Below are positions 9,078 to 33,972 of a stretch of DNA of 34,876 nucleotides, in pieces. The stretch is taken from contig JAUSEV010000018.1 in the NCBI GenBank assembly GCA_030649995.1, positions 1 to 34,876 of the forward strand. Reading direction: 5' to 3'. How positions within the stretch are numbered: position 1 is the first letter of the stretch; each line of letters starts with the position of its first letter. Below the pieces are notes generated by a model. That model saw only the letters and a program-made list of their open reading frames with translations, made no database searches and had not been told where the DNA came from. The stretch comes from Candidatus Uhrbacteria bacterium (GTDB lineage: Bacteria > Patescibacteriota > Patescibacteriia > 2-12-FULL-60-25). The position numbers and the translations under genes were made by a program.

Positions 9078-9150
9078 GGTTTTTCTCAATATTTTTTTGG
9101 CTTGTTTAAGCAAAAATGGCTCTATGAAGCAAAATATACACTTTCACCTC

Positions 9151-9179
9151 TTGACAATATTCTTAATATGTGATATTCT
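9151..9179 (+). promoter_or_regulatory. Near-consensus sigma70 promoter of the accessory cassette
   Basis: TTGACA (9151-9156), a 17-nt spacer and TATTCT (9174-9179). This is the best promoter match in the window. It points into a gene-free leader and then the GC-rich gene cassette. A second copy of the same design (TTGACG, 17 nt, TATTCT) stands at 13983. Confidence 0.75.
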
Positions 9180-9186
9180 ATTTTGA

Positions 9187-9400
9187 TTTGAAGATGAGAA
9201 ACCGACCCAGAAGACTCATAGATCAAGGGGTGTACAGGAACATCATCTTCACGTCATACCATTACAATTTGAGCTAATAACGTCTCGGAAAGGAGAGCCT
9301 GAGCGTTGCAAATAGGGAGGTTAAGCCAAGGGAGGCTTAATCGTCCTATTATTGCAGGCCTATCCTTAAAGAGACGCGAAAGAATCGCGTCTTTCTGTTT
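9187..9400 (+). ncRNA. Candidate small RNA or long leader between promoter and terminator
   Basis: The stretch begins at the predicted start of the 9151 promoter and ends at a terminator-like hairpin: AGACGCG (9372-9378), loop AAAGAAT, CGCGTCT (9386-9392), then TTCTGTTT. A second perfect hairpin TTAAGCC-AAGGGA-GGCTTAA lies before it (around 9321-9340). Only weak short ORFs lie inside. The layout (strong promoter, about 210 nt, hairpin with a T-rich tail) is that of a small RNA gene or an attenuator leader. I could not match it to a known RNA family. Confidence 0.45.
9372..9400 (+). terminator. Terminator or attenuator hairpin
   Basis: A perfect 7-bp stem AGACGCG/CGCGTCT with a 7-nt loop is followed by TTCTGTTT. 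Because genes follow downstream on the same strand, it may act as an attenuator. Confidence 0.55.
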
Positions 9401-9537
9401 CCTACAGTTGTCACTGTTTCCTACGAGCGTTTTGGAGGAAAACCAAGCGTTGAACCGGTTTCCGGTTTCAGCGATTGGAGGATTCTGAACTGACCGGATT
9501 TGGCCACGCCGACGGCGGAGGCTGAACCCTCTCAAAG

Positions 9538-9684
9538 ATGAATCCATGGGATGTCGGATCGATTTATCGAGACGCTCCATCCCGCCCCGCCTCCAAAACC
9601 CTCGTAGTAAATGATGGCGATCATTGGAAGCATCAAGAGATGTGGAGGAGGAACTCGTTCAGGAACCGAACACGGATTTCTTGA
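9538..9684 (+). CDS. Very small hypothetical ORF
   Basis: Encodes 48 residues (MNPWDVGSIYRDAPSRP...NRTRIS). It has no SD at a normal distance and no recognised motif. It is listed because it is the only reasonable ORF in the 460-base interval between the 9400 hairpin and the 9861 gene. The interval otherwise holds a perfect hairpin ATCCAA-CTTAGC-TTGGAT near 9776. It may well be non-coding. Confidence 0.2.
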   Translation: MNPWDVGSIYRDAPSRPASKTLVVNDGDHWKHQEMWRRNSFRNRTRIS

Positions 9685-9860
9685 CGAGCGCAGGACTGAA
9701 GTCAGATTAAATGGATCGCTCTGCTTGTCGGAGCGCATCTGTCACCTCTGATCGGTAGGTCCTCACGGAGCAAGAATCCAACTTAGCTTGGATACCTTGC
9801 CCCACGCCTCTACATCTCTCGGTGTTTCCACATTCCACAACGGAAAAAGGAGGCGGCGGA

Positions 9861-9998
9861 ATGCGCGTGACGTTCGCGTTCGCTTTGATGGGGATCTTCT
9901 CGATCGTCCTCGGCATCGGAGTGGGTTCGGTGTCGAGCCACGCGGCCGAGCAGCTGTTCGGTCGGGTCAGCGTGGCGCTCAACCACATCGAGCGCTGA
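9861..9998 (+). CDS. 45-residue membrane peptide
   Basis: Encodes MRVTFAFALMGIFSIVLGIG and then a short polar tail ending NHIER. The first 25 residues form a single hydrophobic helix, either a membrane anchor or an uncleaved signal; the tail is amphipathic. A strong SD (AAGGAGG) lies 7 nt before the ATG. It is the first well-supported gene of the cassette. GC-rich codons match the genes downstream. About 15 nt after its stop comes a second strong SD (AAAGGAGGTGA) with no proper start codon. No family is recognised; a small membrane partner for the next TM protein (10174) is one possibility. Confidence 0.65.
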   Translation: MRVTFAFALMGIFSIVLGIGVGSVSSHAAEQLFGRVSVALNHIER

Positions 9999-10065
9999 AA
10001 AAACAACGAAACGAAAGGAGGTGAACCGGAAGAAGAAGCGAACTAGCTAGCTCTTTAGATCTAAA

Positions 10066-10088
10066 CGGGAGTAAGTCCTTTTCTCCCG
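10066..10088 (+). repeat. Post-gene hairpin of the cassette (copy 1)
   Basis: CGGGAG and CTCCCG pair around an 11-nt loop. No T tract follows, so it is not a classical terminator. The sequence after it (TTTCCGGAAGTTGAT) recurs after other hairpins of the cassette, making this one of four related spacer modules. Confidence 0.5.
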
Positions 10089-10173
10089 TGTCGTTTCCGG
10101 AAGTTGATTCTCATCGACTTTCGAAAACGGAAGAAAAAGAAAGTTCTTTGACCCTTCAACAGAAGAGGTGACG

Positions 10174-10605
10174 ATGAAAGCAAACGAGTTGCTGGCACTG
10201 TTGCTGATCGTGATCGGTATCGTCGTTCCGTTCTGTGGCGTGCTCGCGCTTCTCGGCTGGCAGATGTTGCGCCAGCGCAAGCTCGTCGTGCCGGAGGATC
10301 TCGAGAAGGCGCCCCCGCCGGTGGCAAAGCCCATGCCGCGGATCGAGGAACCGCGTCAGGTCATCAAGAAGGTGGTCGAGGCCAAGATCAAGAAGGGTCC
10401 GTCTGGGTACGACCGGCGGCGGGATCGGCGAGTGGTGCGGTCGGCACTGGCGCAGGCCTGCCGACTGGCGCGTCTGCAAATCCGGCGTGGCATGACGATC
10501 GACCAGCTCGAGACGCTGCTCGACTCGACGCTGATCCGGAGCAAGCGACCGCTGCCGGTCGCGTCGCCGGTGCGCGTTTCCATCCCGGAACGCATGGCTG
10601 CCTGA
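10174..10605 (+). CDS. Membrane-anchored basic protein, unknown function
   Basis: Encodes 143 residues. One transmembrane helix covers about residues 6-28 (LLALLLIVIGIVVPFCGVLALLGW). A proline-rich acidic/basic linker follows (EDLEKAPPPVAKPMPRIEEP), then a strongly basic helical region of about 75 residues (YDRRRDRRVVRSALAQACRL...). The start is the ATG at 10174, with GAGGTG about 7 nt upstream; the GTG six bases earlier belongs to that SD. The basic tail would face the cytoplasm by the positive-inside rule, so binding to nucleic acid or ribosomes is conceivable. No family is recognised. It is the second gene of the cassette. Confidence 0.7.
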   Translation: MKANELLALLLIVIGIVVPFCGVLALLGWQMLRQRKLVVPEDLEKAPPPVAKPMPRIEEPRQVIKKVVEAKIKKGPSGYDRRRDRRVVRSALAQACRLARLQIRRGMTIDQLETLLDSTLIRSKRPLPVASPVRVSIPERMAA

Positions 10606-10635
10606 TCGAAGGTTTTTCCTTCACAAGGAGGGTCA

Positions 10636-10731
10636 ATGGAAAAGGTTCTCCGCTTCATCGCACTGCTCGACTTCTGCGGGTTCCGGCCCGTGGCGGCGAA
10701 AAAGCTCGGCCTTCAGGTCATCGAGTTCTGA
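10636..10731 (+). CDS. 31-residue peptide with strong SD
   Basis: Encodes MEKVLRFIALLDFCGFRPVA then AKKLGLQVIEF. AAGGAGG ends 4-5 nt before the ATG, an excellent SD at normal spacing. It starts 30 nt after the 10174 gene ends and is probably co-transcribed. The peptide has a hydrophobic N-terminal helix and a short basic-to-acidic tail. No homologue is recognised. Its reality rests on the SD, the codon style and the position inside the cassette. Confidence 0.55.
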   Translation: MEKVLRFIALLDFCGFRPVAAKKLGLQVIEF

Positions 10732-10759
10732 ACCTCTCAACATCGGAAAGGAGACTCGC

Positions 10760-10855
10760 ATGGATTAAGTGTTAGCAGAAGCGATCCCTGACTCGGATCC
10801 GTCCGAGGAAGTCCCAGAGGGGAACGTGGATACAAAAAAGGGATCCCGGATTTAA
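10760..10855 (+). other. Strong-SD two-codon ORF (Met-Asp-stop) with an in-frame continuation
   Basis: AAAGGAG lies 6 nt before ATG GAT TAA. The same frame resumes at once with GTG and runs 28 codons to a stop at 10853 (VLAEAIPDSDPSEEVPEGNV then DTKKGSRI). It is either a minimal leader ORF, a small gene broken by a nonsense codon, or a stop/restart arrangement in which GTG is reused. The continuation is acidic and polar. See the finding on minimal ORFs. Confidence 0.35.
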
Positions 10856-11038
10856 GTCTACCGGGTTAAAAAAAGAAGACTCCTCGGCGACGTGGAGGTC
10901 AACGTCGATGTCCCTTGAATTCTGGCGGAGACACAACTTGTTTCCGCCGCTGTTCTGAAGAGTGAAGATCAAATCTTGACTTTTAAGAACAGATGATATG
11001 GAATTATAGATGTACTTTACATCAAAATTGAGATGTCG

Positions 11039-11095
11039 GACGTCTCTTGAATTGAGTGGATGATTGGATAACGCCCTTTCAATTCAAGGGACGTC
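11039..11095. repeat. 17-bp inverted repeat before the 11158 gene
   Basis: GACGTCTCTTGAATTGA (11039-11055) and TCAATTCAAGGGACGTC (11079-11095) are inverted copies with one mismatch, separated by 23 nt. Another CCCTTGAATT copy lies at about 10912. It can act as an operator or as a strong mRNA hairpin in the leader of the 11158 gene. Confidence 0.6.
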
Positions 11096-11117
11096 ATGTG
11101 GCGTCTCAAGTAAATGC

Positions 11118-11138
11118 GGCCTTCGACAAGCTCAGGCC
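11118..11138. repeat. Hairpin with ACAAGCT apex (copy 1)
   Basis: GGCCT and AGGCC enclose TCGACAAGCTC. It lies shortly before the SD of the 11158 gene. Related hairpins with different stems but the same ACAAGCT centre occur at 13508 and 34074. Confidence 0.45.
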
Positions 11139-11157
11139 AAATAAAGGAGAAGTGGAT

Positions 11158-12588
11158 ATGGCGACCAAGAAGATGTTGAGCCTCGCGCTCGTCACGGCCA
11201 TTCTCCAGAAGATCGGAGAGTGGATCAAGACCGAGCCGGAGGAGATTCCGGCGGGCACCATCACGAAGAAGATCATGAGGCTCGTTCTCGGCTCCAAGTC
11301 GCTGCCGCCGGCGATCGACAAGGGCTTCGAGATGATTCTCCGGTCGAGGTGGACCAAGGATCGGCCGGGACAGGAGGAGATCTTCTCCGCGCTCAGGACC
11401 ATCACGGTACCGCTCGACAGCTGGATCAATCTGGTCATGGATCGGAAAGAAGCTTGCGACGACGGAAATCGCATGGCCACAGAAGCAGAGCTGTCTGGCA
11501 TGGCCTTCGGCCGGATCGATGGGATGAACATGGTCGAGCTCCAGAAGATCGGGTCGGTCATCGAGGCGCGACTCGCTGAAGTCTCCGAAGCCTACGCCGC
11601 GTTCAAGCTGGCCGAGGCGGTCGAGCCGACCGAGTCGCCGGACGTGGTCCGGGCGAAGAAGGCGCACATCCGCGCTTGCGGGGACATCGTCAAGAACATC
11701 CATCACATCGGTCGCAAGCAGGAACTGACGGCGGGCGTGGACGTGTCCATGGCGCTCGAGGCGATCCAGCAGCGTAACCGTCTTCTGCAGGACATGTTCG
11801 ACCGGTTGGTGGACGCGAGGGACTACAAGCCCGTCATCGTCTATCTCTTGCCGAGCAAGTCGTGGATCGATCCGTACAGGGTCGAGGTCGTGAAGGCGGC
11901 GAACCCGGTGGCCAAGCCCGCGCAGGTCAGGCCGGTGATCGACAAGCCGTTCGTGCCGACGACGCAGCAGGTCGCGGCGCAGGCGGGGCAGGATGTCAGG
12001 AAGAAGGTCGAGCCGGAGGTGCCGTACGAGAACCTCGACCTGTTCGGTAAGTGCCAGTGGCTCGAGCGCAAGTGCGCGGCACTGGGCAAGCCGGTCAACA
12101 AAGGCAAGCTCGTCAGCCGTGGCATGCAGCAGGTCAACCTCGAGAAGCGCCGGGCGGCCATGCTCGCACAGGTGGCGGAGCTCGAAAGGGCCTCGGCGAC
12201 CGCGCCGAAGCTCGGTCCGTTGCGCGAGCGCCGGGCGGCGGTGCTCGCGAAGGCCGTCCAGATCGGACGCAAGCTCGAGGGCGAGGCACTCGCGGCGCTC
12301 GAGGTGAAGGACACCATGTCCGACGCCGAGATCACCGGTCTCGAGATCCTCCTCACCCAGTGGGAGAAAACCCTTCTGGACGAAGAGAAGCGCGCTCGCA
12401 GGCAGGTGCCGGTCAAGTCGTCGCCGGTGCCGGTCGTGTCAGTGGCAGACGCGCGTGACGTGGCGGACGCGTTGCGTTCGCAGCGCGAGCAGATCGCTCT
12501 CCCGACGATCGAGGAGTCGTCGGCCGGAAGGGTGCTGGTCAGCCTGATGGACGCGGGCGACCAGAACGGAAAGGGCAAGAGCAACTAG
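11158..12588 (+). CDS. Large helical orphan protein of the cassette
   Basis: A 476-residue protein, the largest of the cassette. The ATG at 11158 has AAGGAG 8 nt upstream; 34 extra residues readable upstream cover the inverted repeats and were rejected. It appears soluble and almost wholly helical. Residues about 1-260 form one block (ILQKIGEWIKTEPEEI near the start), a Pro/Ala/Val-rich linker spans about 255-285, and a charged coiled-coil-like block follows at about 295-425. That block contains two related units: EKRRAAMLAQVAELER near 328 and RERRAAVLAKAVQIGR near 357. The tail is polar. No enzymatic motif is seen; a structural or scaffold role is an inference. Codons are strongly GC-rich, unlike the core genes. 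Confidence 0.85.
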   Translation: MATKKMLSLALVTAILQKIGEWIKTEPEEIPAGTITKKIMRLVLGSKSLPPAIDKGFEMILRSRWTKDRPGQEEIFSALRTITVPLDSWINLVMDRKEACDDGNRMATEAELSGMAFGRIDGMNMVELQKIGSVIEARLAEVSEAYAAFKLAEAVEPTESPDVVRAKKAHIRACGDIVKNIHHIGRKQELTAGVDVSMALEAIQQRNRLLQDMFDRLVDARDYKPVIVYLLPSKSWIDPYRVEVVKAANPVAKPAQVRPVIDKPFVPTTQQVAAQAGQDVRKKVEPEVPYENLDLFGKCQWLERKCAALGKPVNKGKLVSRGMQQVNLEKRRAAMLAQVAELERASATAPKLGPLRERRAAVLAKAVQIGRKLEGEALAALEVKDTMSDAEITGLEILLTQWEKTLLDEEKRARRQVPVKSSPVPVVSVADARDVADALRSQREQIALPTIEESSAGRVLVSLMDAGDQNGKGKSN

Positions 12589-12627
12589 TTCCGCGGTAAG
12601 CGAAACACATAGCACTTTGACGCTCTT

Positions 12628-12654
12628 GGGGGCAGGAAGAAACTTTTCTCCCCC
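12628..12654 (+). repeat. Post-gene hairpin of the cassette (copy 2)
   Basis: GGGGG and CCCCC pair around a 17-nt loop, then TTCGTCTCCGGAGATCGAA. It matches the layout of the hairpins after 10066, 13457 and 13935. Confidence 0.45.
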
Positions 12655-12762
12655 TTCGTCTCCGGAGATCGAACACACTTTCAATCTTCGAAGACGGAAG
12701 TAAAGGTTCAGAAGTTCATTTTATGGGGTAGCCAATCCCCAAAAAAGAAAGGATGGAGTGGA

Positions 12763-13431
12763 ATGGCACTTTCGGAAAAGCAGAAGGTCAGGCAGGCGTT
12801 CGTGCTGATCGAGATGTTGTTTGTCGCGGCCAAGGCGATCGGCAAGGAGATGGGGCTCGACGGAATCCTCCCGGACACGGAGCTCCAGAGCCTGAAGGAG
12901 ACCATCCTGGCCAAGGCGACTCCGCTCCTGAACTTCGTCGCGAAGGAGATGAAGCTCTCCCTGCCGAACGGGACGGTGATGGAGAAGATCAGGGAGGTGC
13001 ATGCCTTCCAGGTGAAGGTGATGCAGACGCTGGTCGCCAAGTGCAACGGGACGGCCGGTTCCGGCGGGAAGTTTTCGTCGTTGCCGGAGGACAGCAACAT
13101 CGTCGTGCTCCACCAACAGATCATGTGGCTGGGGGAGAAGTACAAGGAGCTCCAGCAGCAGGTGCCCGGTGTGTACGACTTTCCGACCTCGGCTCCTCTC
13201 GCCGTCGCCGCACCGGCCCCCGCGCAGGCGGGACCGGCGGCGAAGCCCAAGAGCGGCGGCGAGGGCGGTGGGAAGGACGACGGGAAGGGCGCGGCTTCGG
13301 CCGAACCCGTCCCCGCGTCCGGCGGCGGGAACAACGAGGGTCGCGCCACCATGGGCGACGCGCTCGGGGATCAGCTCAAGTCGCTCCGGGACAGCCTGCC
13401 CTCGGGCAAGGGCGAGGAGGTCGTGCACTAG
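12763..13431 (+). CDS. Orphan protein with helical domain and disordered Gly/Ala/Pro tail
   Basis: Encodes 222 residues starting MALSEKQKVRQAFVLIEMLF. Residues 1 to about 135 are predicted helical with no transmembrane segment. From about 145 onward it is low complexity (APLAVAAPAPAQAGPAAKPK, then GGEGGGKDDGKG), ending in a short helical segment (MGDALGDQLKSLRDSLPSG). GGAG lies about 5 nt before the ATG. It follows the 11158 gene by 174 nt, which contain a hairpin and a palindromic GGGG-TAGCCAAT-CCCC near the start. A perfect terminator hairpin follows its stop. No family is recognised. A helical core plus disordered tail suggests a binding or assembly protein. Confidence 0.8.
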   Translation: MALSEKQKVRQAFVLIEMLFVAAKAIGKEMGLDGILPDTELQSLKETILAKATPLLNFVAKEMKLSLPNGTVMEKIREVHAFQVKVMQTLVAKCNGTAGSGGKFSSLPEDSNIVVLHQQIMWLGEKYKELQQQVPGVYDFPTSAPLAVAAPAPAQAGPAAKPKSGGEGGGKDDGKGAASAEPVPASGGGNNEGRATMGDALGDQLKSLRDSLPSGKGEEVVH

Positions 13432-13456
13432 CACCAAGCAGTACCTTGCGCATCAC

Positions 13457-13493
13457 GGGAAGCGAGTAATCTTACTCTCGCTTCCCGGTTTTT
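13457..13493 (+). terminator. Terminator after the 12763 gene (spacer module copy 3)
   Basis: GGGAAGCGAG and CTCGCTTCCC form a perfect 10-bp stem with a 10-nt loop, followed by GG and TTTTT. TCTCGGAAGTTGAT follows, as in copy 1. Confidence 0.75.
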
Positions 13494-13507
13494 CTCGGAA
13501 GTTGATC

Positions 13508-13524
13508 TCTCGACAAGCTCGAGA
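13508..13524. repeat. Hairpin with ACAAGCT apex (copy 2)
   Basis: TCTCG and CGAGA enclose ACAAGCT exactly. It lies about 75 nt before the 13600 start codon. Confidence 0.45.
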
Positions 13525-13599
13525 AATAAATTGACTGTCGAGAAAAGTTGTAACGGTTGAATGTTCGTTGACCTATTCCGAAGATCGGAGAGTGCTGCC

Positions 13600-13932
13600 A
13601 TGGATCTTGAACTTTTAACGTTGTGCGTCAATTTATTGCATCAAGCTCGTCAGTCCGTTCGTCGTAGTGGGTGTCTGTCTTCGTTGACAGTTAATCCCGA
13701 AAGGTTACCCAACCAATTCAGGCAGTTCGTTACAAGACAGCGTTTGTGCCATGCGCTCGGCATCGATATTCGAACGTTGCCGGATTCGCTGTGTAAGGCA
13801 TTCCGGATCGTGGAGCGCGTTTGGCAATCTTTTCATCGGCCCACATCAGTGGAATTTGTGGACGCTCTCGACGATTTGAAAAGAGTTCTGGAGAGGCATC
13901 AAACGTCCGTTCACCGGTCTCGTGTCGCCTAG
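13600..13932 (+). CDS. Small orphan protein closing the cassette
   Basis: Encodes 110 residues starting MDLELLTLCVNLLHQARQSV. It is basic and helical, without a transmembrane segment. The ATG at 13600 was preferred because GGAG lies about 9 nt upstream; an ATG at 13561 would add 13 residues but has no SD. Base composition is closer to the chromosome backbone than that of the preceding genes. A textbook terminator begins 3 nt after the stop codon, which marks the end of the cassette. No family is recognised. Confidence 0.65.
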   Translation: MDLELLTLCVNLLHQARQSVRRSGCLSSLTVNPERLPNQFRQFVTRQRLCHALGIDIRTLPDSLCKAFRIVERVWQSFHRPTSVEFVDALDDLKRVLERHQTSVHRSRVA

Positions 13933-13934
13933 TA

Positions 13935-13968
13935 GCGGGAGCATTTCTTTGTCTCCCGCACTTTTTTT
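13935..13968 (+). terminator. Strong rho-independent terminator (spacer module copy 4)
   Basis: GCGGGAG (13935-13941) and CTCCCGC (13953-13959) form a perfect 7-bp stem with an 11-nt loop, followed by AC and TTTTTTT, then GGAAGAA. Confidence 0.9.
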
Positions 13969-13982
13969 GGAAGAACCCGCTC

Positions 13983-14011
13983 TTGACGGAACATAAAAAA
14001 TTTTCTATTCT
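13983..14011 (+). promoter_or_regulatory. Near-consensus promoter of a structured RNA candidate
   Basis: TTGACG (13983-13988), a 17-nt spacer and TATTCT (14006-14011), the same -10 hexamer and spacing as the 9151 promoter. No ORF follows, only the structured region at 14034-14171. Confidence 0.7.
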
Positions 14012-14017
14012 TGAGTT

Positions 14018-14175
14018 TGCCATTCGTCCCTCGAAAACTGCGAAGCGAAGTACGTCTCTTGGTTTTTCTTGAAAGCGGTGTCCCCCGAAGCTTTATGCGT
14101 AGGGGGATAAACTCTCTCCTCCCGCCGTCAGGAGGAACCTCCTTATAGATGTGGCCTCGCTTTGCAGTTTTTAAG
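14018..14175 (+). ncRNA. Candidate structured RNA with 15-bp closing stem
   Basis: AAAACTGCGAAGCGA (14034-14048) and TCGCTTTGCAGTTTT (14157-14171) pair with one mismatch and close a region of 138 nt. Inside are CCCCC/GGGGG (around 14082-14106) and CTCCT/AGGAG hairpins. The 3' arm ends in TTTTT, so it can double as a terminator. A near-consensus promoter sits upstream and no ORF is present. It was not recognised as tmRNA, SRP, RNase P or a known riboswitch. The opposite strand vaguely recalls the palindromic ends of IS200/IS605-type elements, so a transposon relic is the main alternative. Confidence 0.45.
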
Positions 14176-14190
14176 GGATGATTAAACAGG

Positions 14191-14272
14191 CATCAGGCAT
14201 CAGGCATCAGGCTTTAGGCTCTAGCTAGCGCCTAAAGCCTAACGCCTAACGCCTAGTGCCTAGCCTAACGCC
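14191..14272. repeat. Heptanucleotide repeat array (array 1)
   Basis: Ten consecutive 7-mers in phase (14191-14260): CATCAGG three times, CTTTAGG, CTCTAGC, TAGCGCC, TAAAGCC, TAACGCC twice, TAGTGCC. Two more follow after a phase shift. The second half is inverted relative to the first, so AGGCTTTAGGC can pair with GCCTAAAGCCT. It fills the spacer next to the 3' end of the RodZ-like gene. Confidence 0.7.
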
Positions 14273-14275
14273 TTT

Positions 14276-14965
14276 TTATTTAAAAGAAGGCAATGGCCTG
14301 TCAAAGATCACTCGTCGCGAGATTGTTGCAGCTTGTCCGTGGCGTCGTTTTGCGGAAATGGTGATAATGACGGTTCCTCGTGGAATATCAATATCAATCA
14401 AAAAAGTGCCATCCGTTTGGACAATGGCTTGGCGGTCATTGACCACCACCGTTGCTTCAGGCGATGTTTTTCCTTGCACGCGCACGATAGGTTCGTCTAA
14501 GCGCGCTCCATCTATCGGGGTTTCAACGAATAGTGGCGGTGGTACGCGGATCGTGCGTACTTGAAAGTACACGTATCCTCCCAAGATGAGCGCGAAAAGC
14601 AAAAATCCGCCGATGGCGACAAAGCGCGAGAGAACGGCCAAATCTAAAGCGCGAATGTGTCGTTTGCGCGGCGATCGCTCGGAAGAGTGGCTTCCGAGTT
14701 GATGCTCTCGTAAGCAGGCGCGATATTTTTGAACGAAATATTTTTCTTTGCCGCCCAAAAATTTTACATAGGCACGCACCAAACGCTCCGCGTATACGGG
14801 ATCAAGAATCTCATTCCACCGTTCTTCTTCGAGAGCGCGAATGGATGATTCGTGAATTTTTGTTTCACGCGCGACCGCTTCGCGGCTCCATCCGGAACGT
14901 TCCCGCAATTCTCGAAGATCGTGCCCTACATGGGAAGAGGGATTGATGGATTTATGGGTAAACAT
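14276..14965 (-). CDS. RodZ-like membrane protein with N-terminal HTH
   Basis: A 229-residue protein. Residues about 14-88 form a RodZ/HTH_25-type helix-turn-helix (LRELRERSGWSREAVARETK then IHESSIRALEE). A basic juxtamembrane stretch (PRKRHIRALD) precedes one transmembrane helix at about 112-136. The outside part has a beta-rich domain of about 75 residues (PIDGARLDEPIVRVQGKTS...) resembling Ig-like or glucodextranase-B-type modules. RodZ links the MreB cytoskeleton to cell-wall synthesis; that role is inferred from architecture. The ATG at 14965 was chosen over a TTG six bases upstream. It lies 45 nt after the ftsK stop and is likely in an operon with recA and ftsK. Confidence 0.8.
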   Translation of the reverse strand: MFTHKSINPSSHVGHDLRELRERSGWSREAVARETKIHESSIRALEEERWNEILDPVYAERLVRAYVKFLGGKEKYFVQKYRACLREHQLGSHSSERSPRKRHIRALDLAVLSRFVAIGGFLLFALILGGYVYFQVRTIRVPPPLFVETPIDGARLDEPIVRVQGKTSPEATVVVNDRQAIVQTDGTFLIDIDIPRGTVIITISAKRRHGQAATISRRVIFDRPLPSFK

Positions 14966-18524: not shown

Positions 18525-20711
18525 TTACCGGGGGCAGGAACCCTCGTCTTCTCCGGCGAGAGGGACCGCAATCTTGAAGTCGAAGAGGCCGTCGTACGGA
18601 TCCGCGCAAACCATCTGCGCGTTCCCCACCAGTTCTTTTCCGTCGAGACGAACCGAGGCAAATCCGGCATCACGCGCCGAACCGCCTTTCGGAATCCATC
18701 CGCCATGGTACTGGTTACCGCACACGGTCGTGGTCATGACCCATCCGTGCCAGTTGATGCCGATCGGGACATCGAGTGCCGCTCCGGGAACGGAGCGCAC
18801 CTGCTTTCCCTGCGGATCCCAGATGACGATGATGAGTCCTTGCGGGCATGAGGCTTTGAGGTTTGCCCCGGCCTCGATCCACAGGCGGCGTTCCACGAGG
18901 TTGGGTTTTGCGACATCGACGAGTCCGGGCATGACCAAGTCTCGGAAGGCACTCATGTCCGGAGGTGACGAGACCATGTCGGGAGGCGCGAAACCCATGT
19001 CCGGCTTCGGTGCGCACAAGGGGTTCTTCAGGCAATCCCCGTCCGCGCAGTCCGTTTTTCCATCGCAGTCATCATCGAAGGCGTTGTCGCAGACTTCCGA
19101 GAATGTGTAGCAGGTCAGGCTCCAGTCGCAGGCAGGGGCTTCGCACACGCGAAAGCCGGCGACACCACACGAGGTCACGCAGAGGGGTCCGTGACGACCG
19201 AGCGGGCACAGAAAGATTTCATCAATCGATCCGTTTCCGTCATCGTCGAGACCGTTGCAGATCTCGGGCTGCTTGAGAACCTGTTTCATGTCCGGAACGT
19301 TCACGGAGAGATCGGACGGTACGCTTGCATCCGCTTCGATCCCACCGCCACCGACTCCCGCGTCGCAAGAACCGTTTCCGCACCGCTTCGGGTAAGCGCA
19401 ATAGGCGGCGGTCTCGGGAGTGATCGTCGGTCCTCGCGGAAAGGCGACTTCATCCAGCGTGAGCGGATCGACTTCGATGATCTGTTCCGCTCGATATCCC
19501 ATGGCGAGAAAGGTCGTCCAGTCGAAGATCGGGAGCCGACGACCGTTTGATACCACCGAGACCTCACTTGCCCATCGGCCTTTGACCAGGCTGCCGTCTC
19601 GCAGACGACGGAACCCCTTGTCTTGGTAGCGGGCAAAAAAGGCAGGGCGCTCACTTGCGGGTTTTGTCACGATCTGAGCGTTCTTCCAGCCCCAAGAGTT
19701 GAAGGCTTCCTGGGAGATAAAGACGTAGCGTACGGGGCTCGGTCTGTTTTGGTACTCGTAGACCGCGGAGGCGTCGTCGAACTTGAGCAGCTGAGAAGCG
19801 GTCAGTTCCGGCTGATAGGCCGAACCTTTGGCGTAGCAAGCCAGCTCTTCTTCGCTCGTCGGGATACAGTGAGACGTGAGATGCTCCGACTCCATGTCGA
19901 ACGGATCGATCTGGAGCAGGTCGTCGTGTTCGCCCACCATCCAGGCAAGACCCGTTTCGCGCTGATTGGTCAGCACCGTTCCCATCGGGTGGGAACGAAC
20001 GGCAATACCCTGGGTCATGAGAACATCGAGGAAACCCGCGGGGTCAGCGAACCACCGGAGCTGGGAGGGCGTGGTGTCATACCCACGAAACCAGCTCTGA
20101 TCCGTTGCCTGGGCGGCAGACATGGTCTGCAGCCGAATGCCGAAGTGCAGATGTTCGGCTCCATCGCCGTTACGGGCGTCGTTCTCGATGTAACCGATGA
20201 CATCTTCCGGGCTCACCGTGTCACCGACGCGGATGGCGAGCCGTGTTCCGTCGTTCTTGAGCATGGTCATGTGTCCGTAGATGGACAAGAAGCTCGTGAC
20301 CGTGACCTGTTCTTCCAGACCGTTCTTGACGATGCGCGGCTCGGAGAGCCGGTGTTCGATGACGACCACGAGCGTGCCGTAACCGGATGCCGGTCCGAAG
20401 TAGCGCACCGTGCCACAGGCGATGGGGTGGATGGGCGTGCCTTCCGGAAGCGCGAGGTCACGTCCCAGGTGGTTGCCATCCTTGTAGAAGCCGCGGTTCT
20501 GGTAGAGGCGATCGAAGCCTTCGCGGTTCGTCGGATATCGAACCGTGGACACGCCGCAGGCGACGAGGTTGCTTTTCGTCTGACTGCTCCAGTCCTCGAG
20601 CAAGCTCTGACGGCAGGCCGAGAGGAAGGCCGCGAAGAACAGGCACCAGGAGATGAGAGCAACGAACACCGGCCAGGACGAGGGAACGTGGAACGACAGG
20701 ATGCGACGCAT
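18525..20711 (-). CDS. Large secreted lipoprotein: M23 peptidase domain plus MopE-like Asp-rich repeats
   Basis: A 728-residue protein with a hydrophobic N-terminal segment and a lipobox-like FLSAC (Cys33). A LytM/M23 metallopeptidase domain follows at about 60-200, with Zn-binding HLGRD (His81, Asp85), YGHM (146-149) and HLHFG (His187, His189), so cleavage of peptidoglycan cross-links is likely. The middle (about 200-430) is unassigned. Two MopE-type motifs, CNGLDDDGNGSIDE near 482 and CDNAFDDDCDGKTDCADGDC near 537, are Asp/Cys-rich and probably bind metal. A Pro-Asp-Met linker (PPDMVSSPPDM) leads to a C-terminal beta-rich domain. The SD AAAGGAG lies 7 nt before ATG. Codons are GC-rich. MopE modules are best known from myxobacteria-like genomes, so transfer is possible. 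Confidence 0.85.
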   Translation of the reverse strand: MRRILSFHVPSSWPVFVALISWCLFFAAFLSACRQSLLEDWSSQTKSNLVACGVSTVRYPTNREGFDRLYQNRGFYKDGNHLGRDLALPEGTPIHPIACGTVRYFGPASGYGTLVVVIEHRLSEPRIVKNGLEEQVTVTSFLSIYGHMTMLKNDGTRLAIRVGDTVSPEDVIGYIENDARNGDGAEHLHFGIRLQTMSAAQATDQSWFRGYDTTPSQLRWFADPAGFLDVLMTQGIAVRSHPMGTVLTNQRETGLAWMVGEHDDLLQIDPFDMESEHLTSHCIPTSEEELACYAKGSAYQPELTASQLLKFDDASAVYEYQNRPSPVRYVFISQEAFNSWGWKNAQIVTKPASERPAFFARYQDKGFRRLRDGSLVKGRWASEVSVVSNGRRLPIFDWTTFLAMGYRAEQIIEVDPLTLDEVAFPRGPTITPETAAYCAYPKRCGNGSCDAGVGGGGIEADASVPSDLSVNVPDMKQVLKQPEICNGLDDDGNGSIDEIFLCPLGRHGPLCVTSCGVAGFRVCEAPACDWSLTCYTFSEVCDNAFDDDCDGKTDCADGDCLKNPLCAPKPDMGFAPPDMVSSPPDMSAFRDLVMPGLVDVAKPNLVERRLWIEAGANLKASCPQGLIIVIWDPQGKQVRSVPGAALDVPIGINWHGWVMTTTVCGNQYHGGWIPKGGSARDAGFASVRLDGKELVGNAQMVCADPYDGLFDFKIAVPLAGEDEGSCPR

Positions 20712-33435: not shown

Positions 33436-33972
33436 CTAGGCCGTGGCCACCTCCCACTCGATCTTGGTCATGTGGTTGGCGGTCTCGACGGCGTCGTTCA
33501 GCCGGTCGAAGTAGTTCCGCAGGCGCTCGACGTCGGCCACGCGGTCCACCTCCTTCAGCTCGGTCTTGTGCACGACCTCCGTGACACGCGGGACCGAGCG
33601 TCCCGTGGCCTCGTCGTACTCGCTTTCGCGGCGCTTCTCGACGCCCTCGGTCAGCCGCAGCCCCTGGAGCCAGACGATCTCCGCCTTGGTCTCCTGGAGC
33701 CGGCGCACCGCCTCGGCGATCGTCATCCGCTTCCCGTCGATCTCGACGGTGGCGGTGGCGTTCGCGCGGGCGATGGCGGCCTCGAGGGTCACGAGCTGCT
33801 CGCGGGTCGTCCGCAGCTTCTCGCGGGTTTCGCCGAACGCCCACACGGGCTTCTGCGATTCCTCGTACGAGACGCACGCGGCGGCGCGGCTGCCGAACTC
33901 GGCCATCTGCCCCTTGAGCTGCTTCACGCGACGGAGCCCCTGCGAAATCGTCTTCGGCTGAACGTTGGTCAT
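33436..33972 (-). CDS. Helical protein, possibly DIP1984-like
   Basis: A 178-residue, highly charged, almost all-helical protein starting MTNVQPKTISQGLRRVKQLK. The middle (ANATATVEIDGKRMTIAEAV, about 90-110) and the C-terminal part (RNYFDRLNDAVETANHMTKI) resemble the DIP1984 family, where an INxTN...DGxTLTEAL segment and a final IQEANWxTEL segment are typical. That likeness is from memory. Function of that family is unknown. An SD-like GGTAGG lies about 6 nt before the ATG. Its leader holds two hairpins (34025-34053, 34074-34093). GC-rich codons place it in the orphan class. It has a private terminator at 33083. Confidence 0.7.
   Translation of the reverse strand: MTNVQPKTISQGLRRVKQLKGQMAEFGSRAAACVSYEESQKPVWAFGETREKLRTTREQLVTLEAAIARANATATVEIDGKRMTIAEAVRRLQETKAEIVWLQGLRLTEGVEKRRESEYDEATGRSVPRVTEVVHKTELKEVDRVADVERLRNYFDRLNDAVETANHMTKIEWEVATA

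Follow-up and report, generated by a model that had tools for sequence, protein, structure and literature searches.

A candidate class of structured RNA heads a hypervariable protein locus in ABY1 Patescibacteria

Patescibacteria make up a large, mostly uncultured part of bacterial diversity. The window analysed here is a stretch of 34,876 nt, contig C8 of a 1.08-Mb genome (99% complete) from an Uhrbacteria-related member of this group, class ABY1. On its plus strand, between 9151 and 14,170, lies a locus that starts with a near-consensus promoter and a long gene-less stretch predicted to encode a large structured RNA, and continues with a series of mostly GC-rich open reading frames (ORFs), an intrinsic terminator and a second structured RNA. 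Comparison of loci places this site between rpoB on one side (rpsO in the window) and rodZ-ftsK on the other across the family, and in most family genomes the order is promoter, conserved folded RNA, GC-rich ORFs and then rodZ on the opposite strand. Named carriers of the rodZ-like gene among the relatives are mostly Candidatus Uhrbacteria. Essentially one RNA locus is found per genome.

The large RNA was searched for with two covariance models, R1, built from seven sequences, and the broader R3 (29 sequences used); the E-values are rough because of a short calibration. Its elements are the following:

9151..9179, plus strand: promoter of the large RNA, TTGACA-17-TATTCT (TTGACA 9151-9156; TATTCT 9174-9179), with just one other promoter-like site in 9100-14300
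9187..9257, plus strand: predicted 5'-terminal hairpin of the transcript, from the computed fold; similar 5' hairpins occur in relatives G002, G003 and G010
9370..9394, plus strand: terminator-like 10-bp hairpin before domain 1, an attenuator candidate; its T-tract is weak in the window
9425..9601, plus strand: RNA domain 1 (CGTTTTGGAGG...CCTCCAAAACC), matched by R3 at E 2.0e-16 and also by R1
9625..9830, plus strand: RNA domain 2 with its extended closing helix, core 9635-9818 (GATGTGGAGGAGGAAC...CCTCTACATC), based on R1/R3 matches and covariation

The stretch from 9187 to 9830 folds into two tandem multi-helix domains, with a computed energy of -263 kcal/mol against -198 kcal/mol for shuffled sequences (z -11.5). 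The original prediction had placed the promoter at 9151 correctly and had read what follows as an empty 210-nt leader ending in a hairpin. That 10-bp hairpin is present at 9370-9394, but the gene-less stretch continues past it to 9860, and the structured RNA of about 640 nt had been missed. Each domain measures about 160 nt and consists of a closing helix and three hairpin arms, with one to four copies per locus. Within the closing helix, the 5' strand (UGGAGGAGGA) varies less than the 3' strand it pairs with, and arms A and C were seen to form in the sequences inspected. In one arm, often UUCG-capped, a G-U pair is kept in 27 of 28 sequences, which suggests that selection acts on the RNA and not on the DNA.

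Compensatory change is already seen in 18 of 33 pairs in a seven-sequence MAFFT alignment, which was not fitted to the structure. Among 55 distinct matches, 31 of the 33 pairs show two-sided change, 89.8% of the cells pair compared to 39-45% (at most 44.5%) after displacing the partners by 1-3 columns, and covariation scores 0.577 compared to 0.186 after shuffling, all figures that are inflated by an alignment fitted to the structure. This analysis was repeated on 29 sequences. R1 matches on the minus strand at true sites were discarded as palindrome echoes. Scans of Rfam 15, both at the gathering threshold and in E-value mode, gave no match for the window domain or the related loci scanned, and the RNA falls outside every catalogued family.

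R1 recovers 31 of the 41 family genomes, and R3 finds the domain in 30 of the 36 family genomes sampled. Outside the family, R3 matches 22 further genomes from about 12 other families of class ABY1, with a best E of 6e-21 and the weakest matches doubtful; a phylum-wide sample gave one match outside the class, which is weak. Model matches in G353 and G460 are also weak and were taken as probable chance. In several other families the RNA again adjoins rpoB. Within the family, the RNA usually heads 1-10 ORFs, with extra domain copies sometimes located between small ORFs (four copies in G007), while G018 has no called ORF separating the RNA from rodZ. When the leader, rather than the proteins, was used as a DNA query, the equivalent site in G002 of the same genus was matched with 68% identity (E 2e-12).

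Two genomes carry the RNA as a discrete unit. Between frr and a glycyl-tRNA synthetase gene, G200 has a promoter followed by two domains and an intrinsic terminator, and G045 has a promoter, one domain and a terminator downstream of lepA; neither unit contains an ORF. The names of these neighbouring genes are based on the encoded sequences rather than on profile searches. In G243 the promoter-domain-ORF unit is present twice, with paralogous ORFs (31% identity, E 2e-9). Two consecutive promoter-RNA-ORF units with paralogous ORFs lie at L122:7541-8675.

A near-consensus promoter with a spacing of exactly 17 nt lies upstream of the first domain in 27 of 30 related loci. Immediately ahead of the first domain, 10 of 27 related loci carry an intrinsic terminator, compared to 0.5 expected from shuffled leaders, and all 10 have leaders of more than 100 nt. 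The arrangement resembles attenuation.

Downstream of the RNA, the window contains the following elements:

9861..9998, plus strand: ORF of 45 amino acids (aa) with one transmembrane segment, no family
10067..10135, plus strand: two-hairpin spacer module (GGGAG..CTCCC, then CGTTTCCGG..), direct-repeat family D2/D5, z -3.1
10174..10605, plus strand: ORF of 143 aa with an N-terminal transmembrane segment, strongly basic (+15), weak Shine-Dalgarno sequence, no family
10636..10731, plus strand: ORF of 31 aa, from the ORF call
10760..10768, plus strand: Met-Asp-stop with a Shine-Dalgarno sequence, not clearly enriched in related loci
10880..11139, plus strand: structured non-coding spacer before the 476-aa ORF, z -6.2 and -6.7, inverted repeat I5
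11158..12588, plus strand: ORF of 476 aa, predicted largely helical (low-confidence model), no relative found
12629..12703, plus strand: two-hairpin spacer module, z -4.3
12763..13431, plus strand: ORF of 222 aa with a low-complexity C-terminal part, covered by the family and relative searches
13457..13545, plus strand: two-hairpin spacer module, z -4.6
13600..13932, plus strand: ORF of 110 aa, GC3 (G+C at third codon positions) 0.52
13935..13968, plus strand: intrinsic terminator GCGGGAG..CTCCCGC followed by T7, read directly from the letters

All six ORFs lie at the starts given in the original prediction, the Met-Asp-stop unit and the T7 terminator it described are present, and its view of the proteins as belonging to no recognised family also held: no Pfam, PHROGs, PADLOC or PDB-sequence family could be assigned to the proteins tested. 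Searches of Pfam, PHROGs, NCBIfam, PADLOC, PDB sequences, phage records (tblastn) and viral contigs returned nothing for these window proteins beyond one marginal PHROGs match (E 0.006) to a family of unknown function; related loci likewise gave one weak match. Nor, apart from that marginal match, was any homology marking a phage or defence module found for them in PHROGs, PADLOC, phage tblastn or viral contigs. Three window proteins searched against 57 related genomes had no relative, and cassette proteins are not conserved even within the genus. Across the family loci, 85 ORFs are unrelated between genomes except for four small clusters, and matches to known families are confined to isolated ORFs. 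Of the proteins scanned, just one could be clearly recognised, a cassette ORF with a RecR/Toprim domain in G027 (L106:2297-3886).

The locus had been proposed as an undescribed accessory locus, which agrees with the recurrence of its site and 5' RNA across the family. Conserved gene order in related genomes, a check suggested at that time, was found for the flanks and the 5' RNA but not for the cassette proteins. As far as sequence comparison goes, the conserved component of the locus is the RNA, not the proteins.

Our favoured reading, to which we assign a probability of roughly 0.6, is that a new ABY1 class of structured non-coding RNA heads the locus, and that its folded domain would be the selected product acting in trans, with the ORFs as cargo. 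The RNA itself is most likely the selected product because terminated versions without ORFs exist and pairing is conserved where proteins are not; since it stands alone elsewhere, it is probably the RNA that functions, the ORFs being variable cargo. For the fuller scheme the odds are about even: the class would consist of discrete terminated genes, while in Uhrbacteria-related genomes it would form the conserved head of a hypervariable protein locus, the RNA staying fixed, its protein partners or cargo being quickly replaced and the second RNA closing the locus.

In terms of mechanism, the near-consensus sigma70-type promoter would give an abundant transcript, and in long-leader loci the terminator before the first domain might act as an attenuator that makes production of the domains and ORFs conditional. 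Acting in trans, the folded domain would most probably scaffold either a protein or a ribosomal partner, and the ORFs would be quickly changing cargo riding on the RNA promoter, some of them perhaps partners of the RNA. A ribosome- or protein-binding role is reasonable because the invariant strand is Shine-Dalgarno-like and the neighbourhoods are rich in translation and transcription genes. A trans-acting RNA or ribonucleoprotein (RNP) scaffold is our best guess for its role.

Several points weigh against this reading. Eight of the out-of-family genomes match weaker than 1e-6, and some of these may be chance. The proposed trans partner, the ribosome included, derives from a single conserved motif, most of which is base-paired within the closing helix. 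Because the domains stand ahead of ORFs at most family loci, regulation in cis could apply there. The transcript, finally, is predicted from sequence.

The main rival explanation, possible but rather unlikely in our view, is a cis-regulatory leader: a riboswitch-like or protein-sensing 5' untranslated region would use the leader terminator as a switch to control the variable genes. Tandem riboswitches and attenuators do resemble the RNA in their tandem copies, their leader terminator and their position upstream of ORFs, as seen in most family loci and in G243, and in the window domain 2 and the first ORF are not separated by a terminator. On such an account, the genes of stand-alone copies would have been lost, or these copies would regulate the housekeeping gene that comes next. 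However, the units in G200 and G045 are terminated without any ORF. Furthermore, riboswitch classes normally precede related genes at many loci, whereas the genes downstream of this RNA, at what is essentially a single locus per genome, are mutually unrelated and form no coherent set.

An RNP at the membrane, with small transmembrane proteins from the genes just downstream anchoring the RNA, is unlikely. The model would be the OLE RNP of Bacillota, where a large ornate non-coding RNA is followed by membrane protein genes and the gene of the membrane protein OapA (oapA) is the most common immediate downstream neighbour (PMC12265935). Similarly, the window RNA is followed by two transmembrane ORFs (45 aa and the basic 143 aa, net charge +15), and in G009 a 77-aa transmembrane ORF comes directly after the first domain. 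Yet transmembrane ORFs occur in only 7 of the 22 related loci with called ORFs, show no homology and are absent from the stand-alone copies. The RNA also differs from OLE in having no Rfam match to it, a repeated domain of about 160 nt, unconserved downstream genes and a host from another bacterial class. With regard to an OapA-type protein downstream, the window has the two transmembrane ORFs, for which Pfam gave no match. An assembled membrane-linked structure, as suggested earlier for the cassette proteins, is thus not generally supported, these proteins being unconserved within the genus.

ROOL and GOLLD, which form RNA-only multimers (PMC12286853), are likewise large, multi-helix orphan bacterial RNAs. 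The RNA described here differs from them in that Rfam gives no match for it, neither phage genes nor a match to phage records were found, and its stand-alone versions can be single-domain.

A recombination hot spot or integron-like array, with structured inter-ORF repeats as sites that exchange gene cassettes behind a strong promoter, would fit the same-strand ORFans, the structured elements repeated between them, the high turnover and the repeated units in G243, but is very doubtful given the conserved G-U pair and RNA-level covariation, a domain built as a multi-arm junction unlike the attC hairpin, the essentially fixed locus, the cargo-free copies at other sites in other families, and the lack of a recognised integrase among the cassette proteins (no genome-wide integrase search or attC model was run).

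Orphan structured RNAs are already known in bacteria as a broader kind. The occurrence in about a dozen families, in some of which the RNA has a promoter and a terminator to itself, and the lack of an Rfam match make this a concrete orphan RNA gene in organisms with genomes of about 1 Mb. We know of no system that conserved RNA domains heading a hypervariable ORF locus would match, and searches of the open full-text literature, the scope of which left out subscription journals and preprint servers, found no paper on such an RNA in Patescibacteria. A conserved RNA beside completely replaceable proteins is an unusual contrast that permits direct tests.

Beyond the T7 terminator, which had been taken as the end of the cassette, a second promoter and a second RNA are located that had been missed:

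13983..14011, plus strand: second-RNA promoter, TTGACG-17-TATTCT; G001 and G002 show a similar layout
14018..14170, plus strand: second structured RNA, rod-shaped, about 150 nt, z -9.9

Among three sequences, 15 of 57 pairs of the second RNA covary. Its model, R2, matches about 20 of the 41 family genomes, and the RNA adjoins rodZ where checked; in G002 it is inverted. With its rod shape, a length in the range of about 150-190 nt and its own promoter it resembles 6S RNA. In contrast, the canonical 6S model (RF00013) matched none of the 41 family genomes, while controls matched in 5 of 14, and the second RNA itself gave no 6S match in the Rfam scans. A piece of about 29 nt of the R2 model (positions 81-109) recurs many times in G016, G057, G031 and others, which suggests a small hairpin repeat present in dispersed copies. 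A long imperfect hairpin of AGGCATC-type repeats, at 14188-14261, lies in the gap that separates the second RNA from rodZ.

Regarding the cassette itself, the spacers of the window are folded (z -3 to -6.7) and the coding parts mostly not, with three spacers sharing the two-hairpin module. Several ORFs are preceded by clear Shine-Dalgarno sequences. Enrichment of mini-ORFs in related loci is unconvincing (10 on the sense strand compared to 5 on the antisense strand); besides the Met-Asp-stop at 10760, a Shine-Dalgarno sequence with a very short ORF is seen in L050 (Met-Asp-Val-Met-stop). The AlphaFold model of the 476-aa protein was not used (mean predicted local distance difference test score, pLDDT, 47). 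In the best related cluster (L086, L089 and L090) the N-terminus folds with fair confidence, its best PDB match being at E 0.9. A by-eye likeness of this domain to the 110-aa and 476-aa proteins was dropped, not being above shuffled decoys.

GC-rich codons, earlier ascribed to the whole cassette, are found in its first five ORFs (GC3 0.81-0.91, compared to 0.40-0.56 in most neighbours) and not in the 110-aa ORF. The cassette is not alone in having accessory genes of high GC3, since an unrelated gene at 33436-33972 on the minus strand has a GC3 of 0.96. This gene is DUF6847-like (E 3.8e-5, below the cut-off) and matches a phage tail-fibre profile over a short stretch (E 4.9e-8). A large gene at 18525-20711, also on the minus strand, has a GC3 of 0.73, well above its neighbours.

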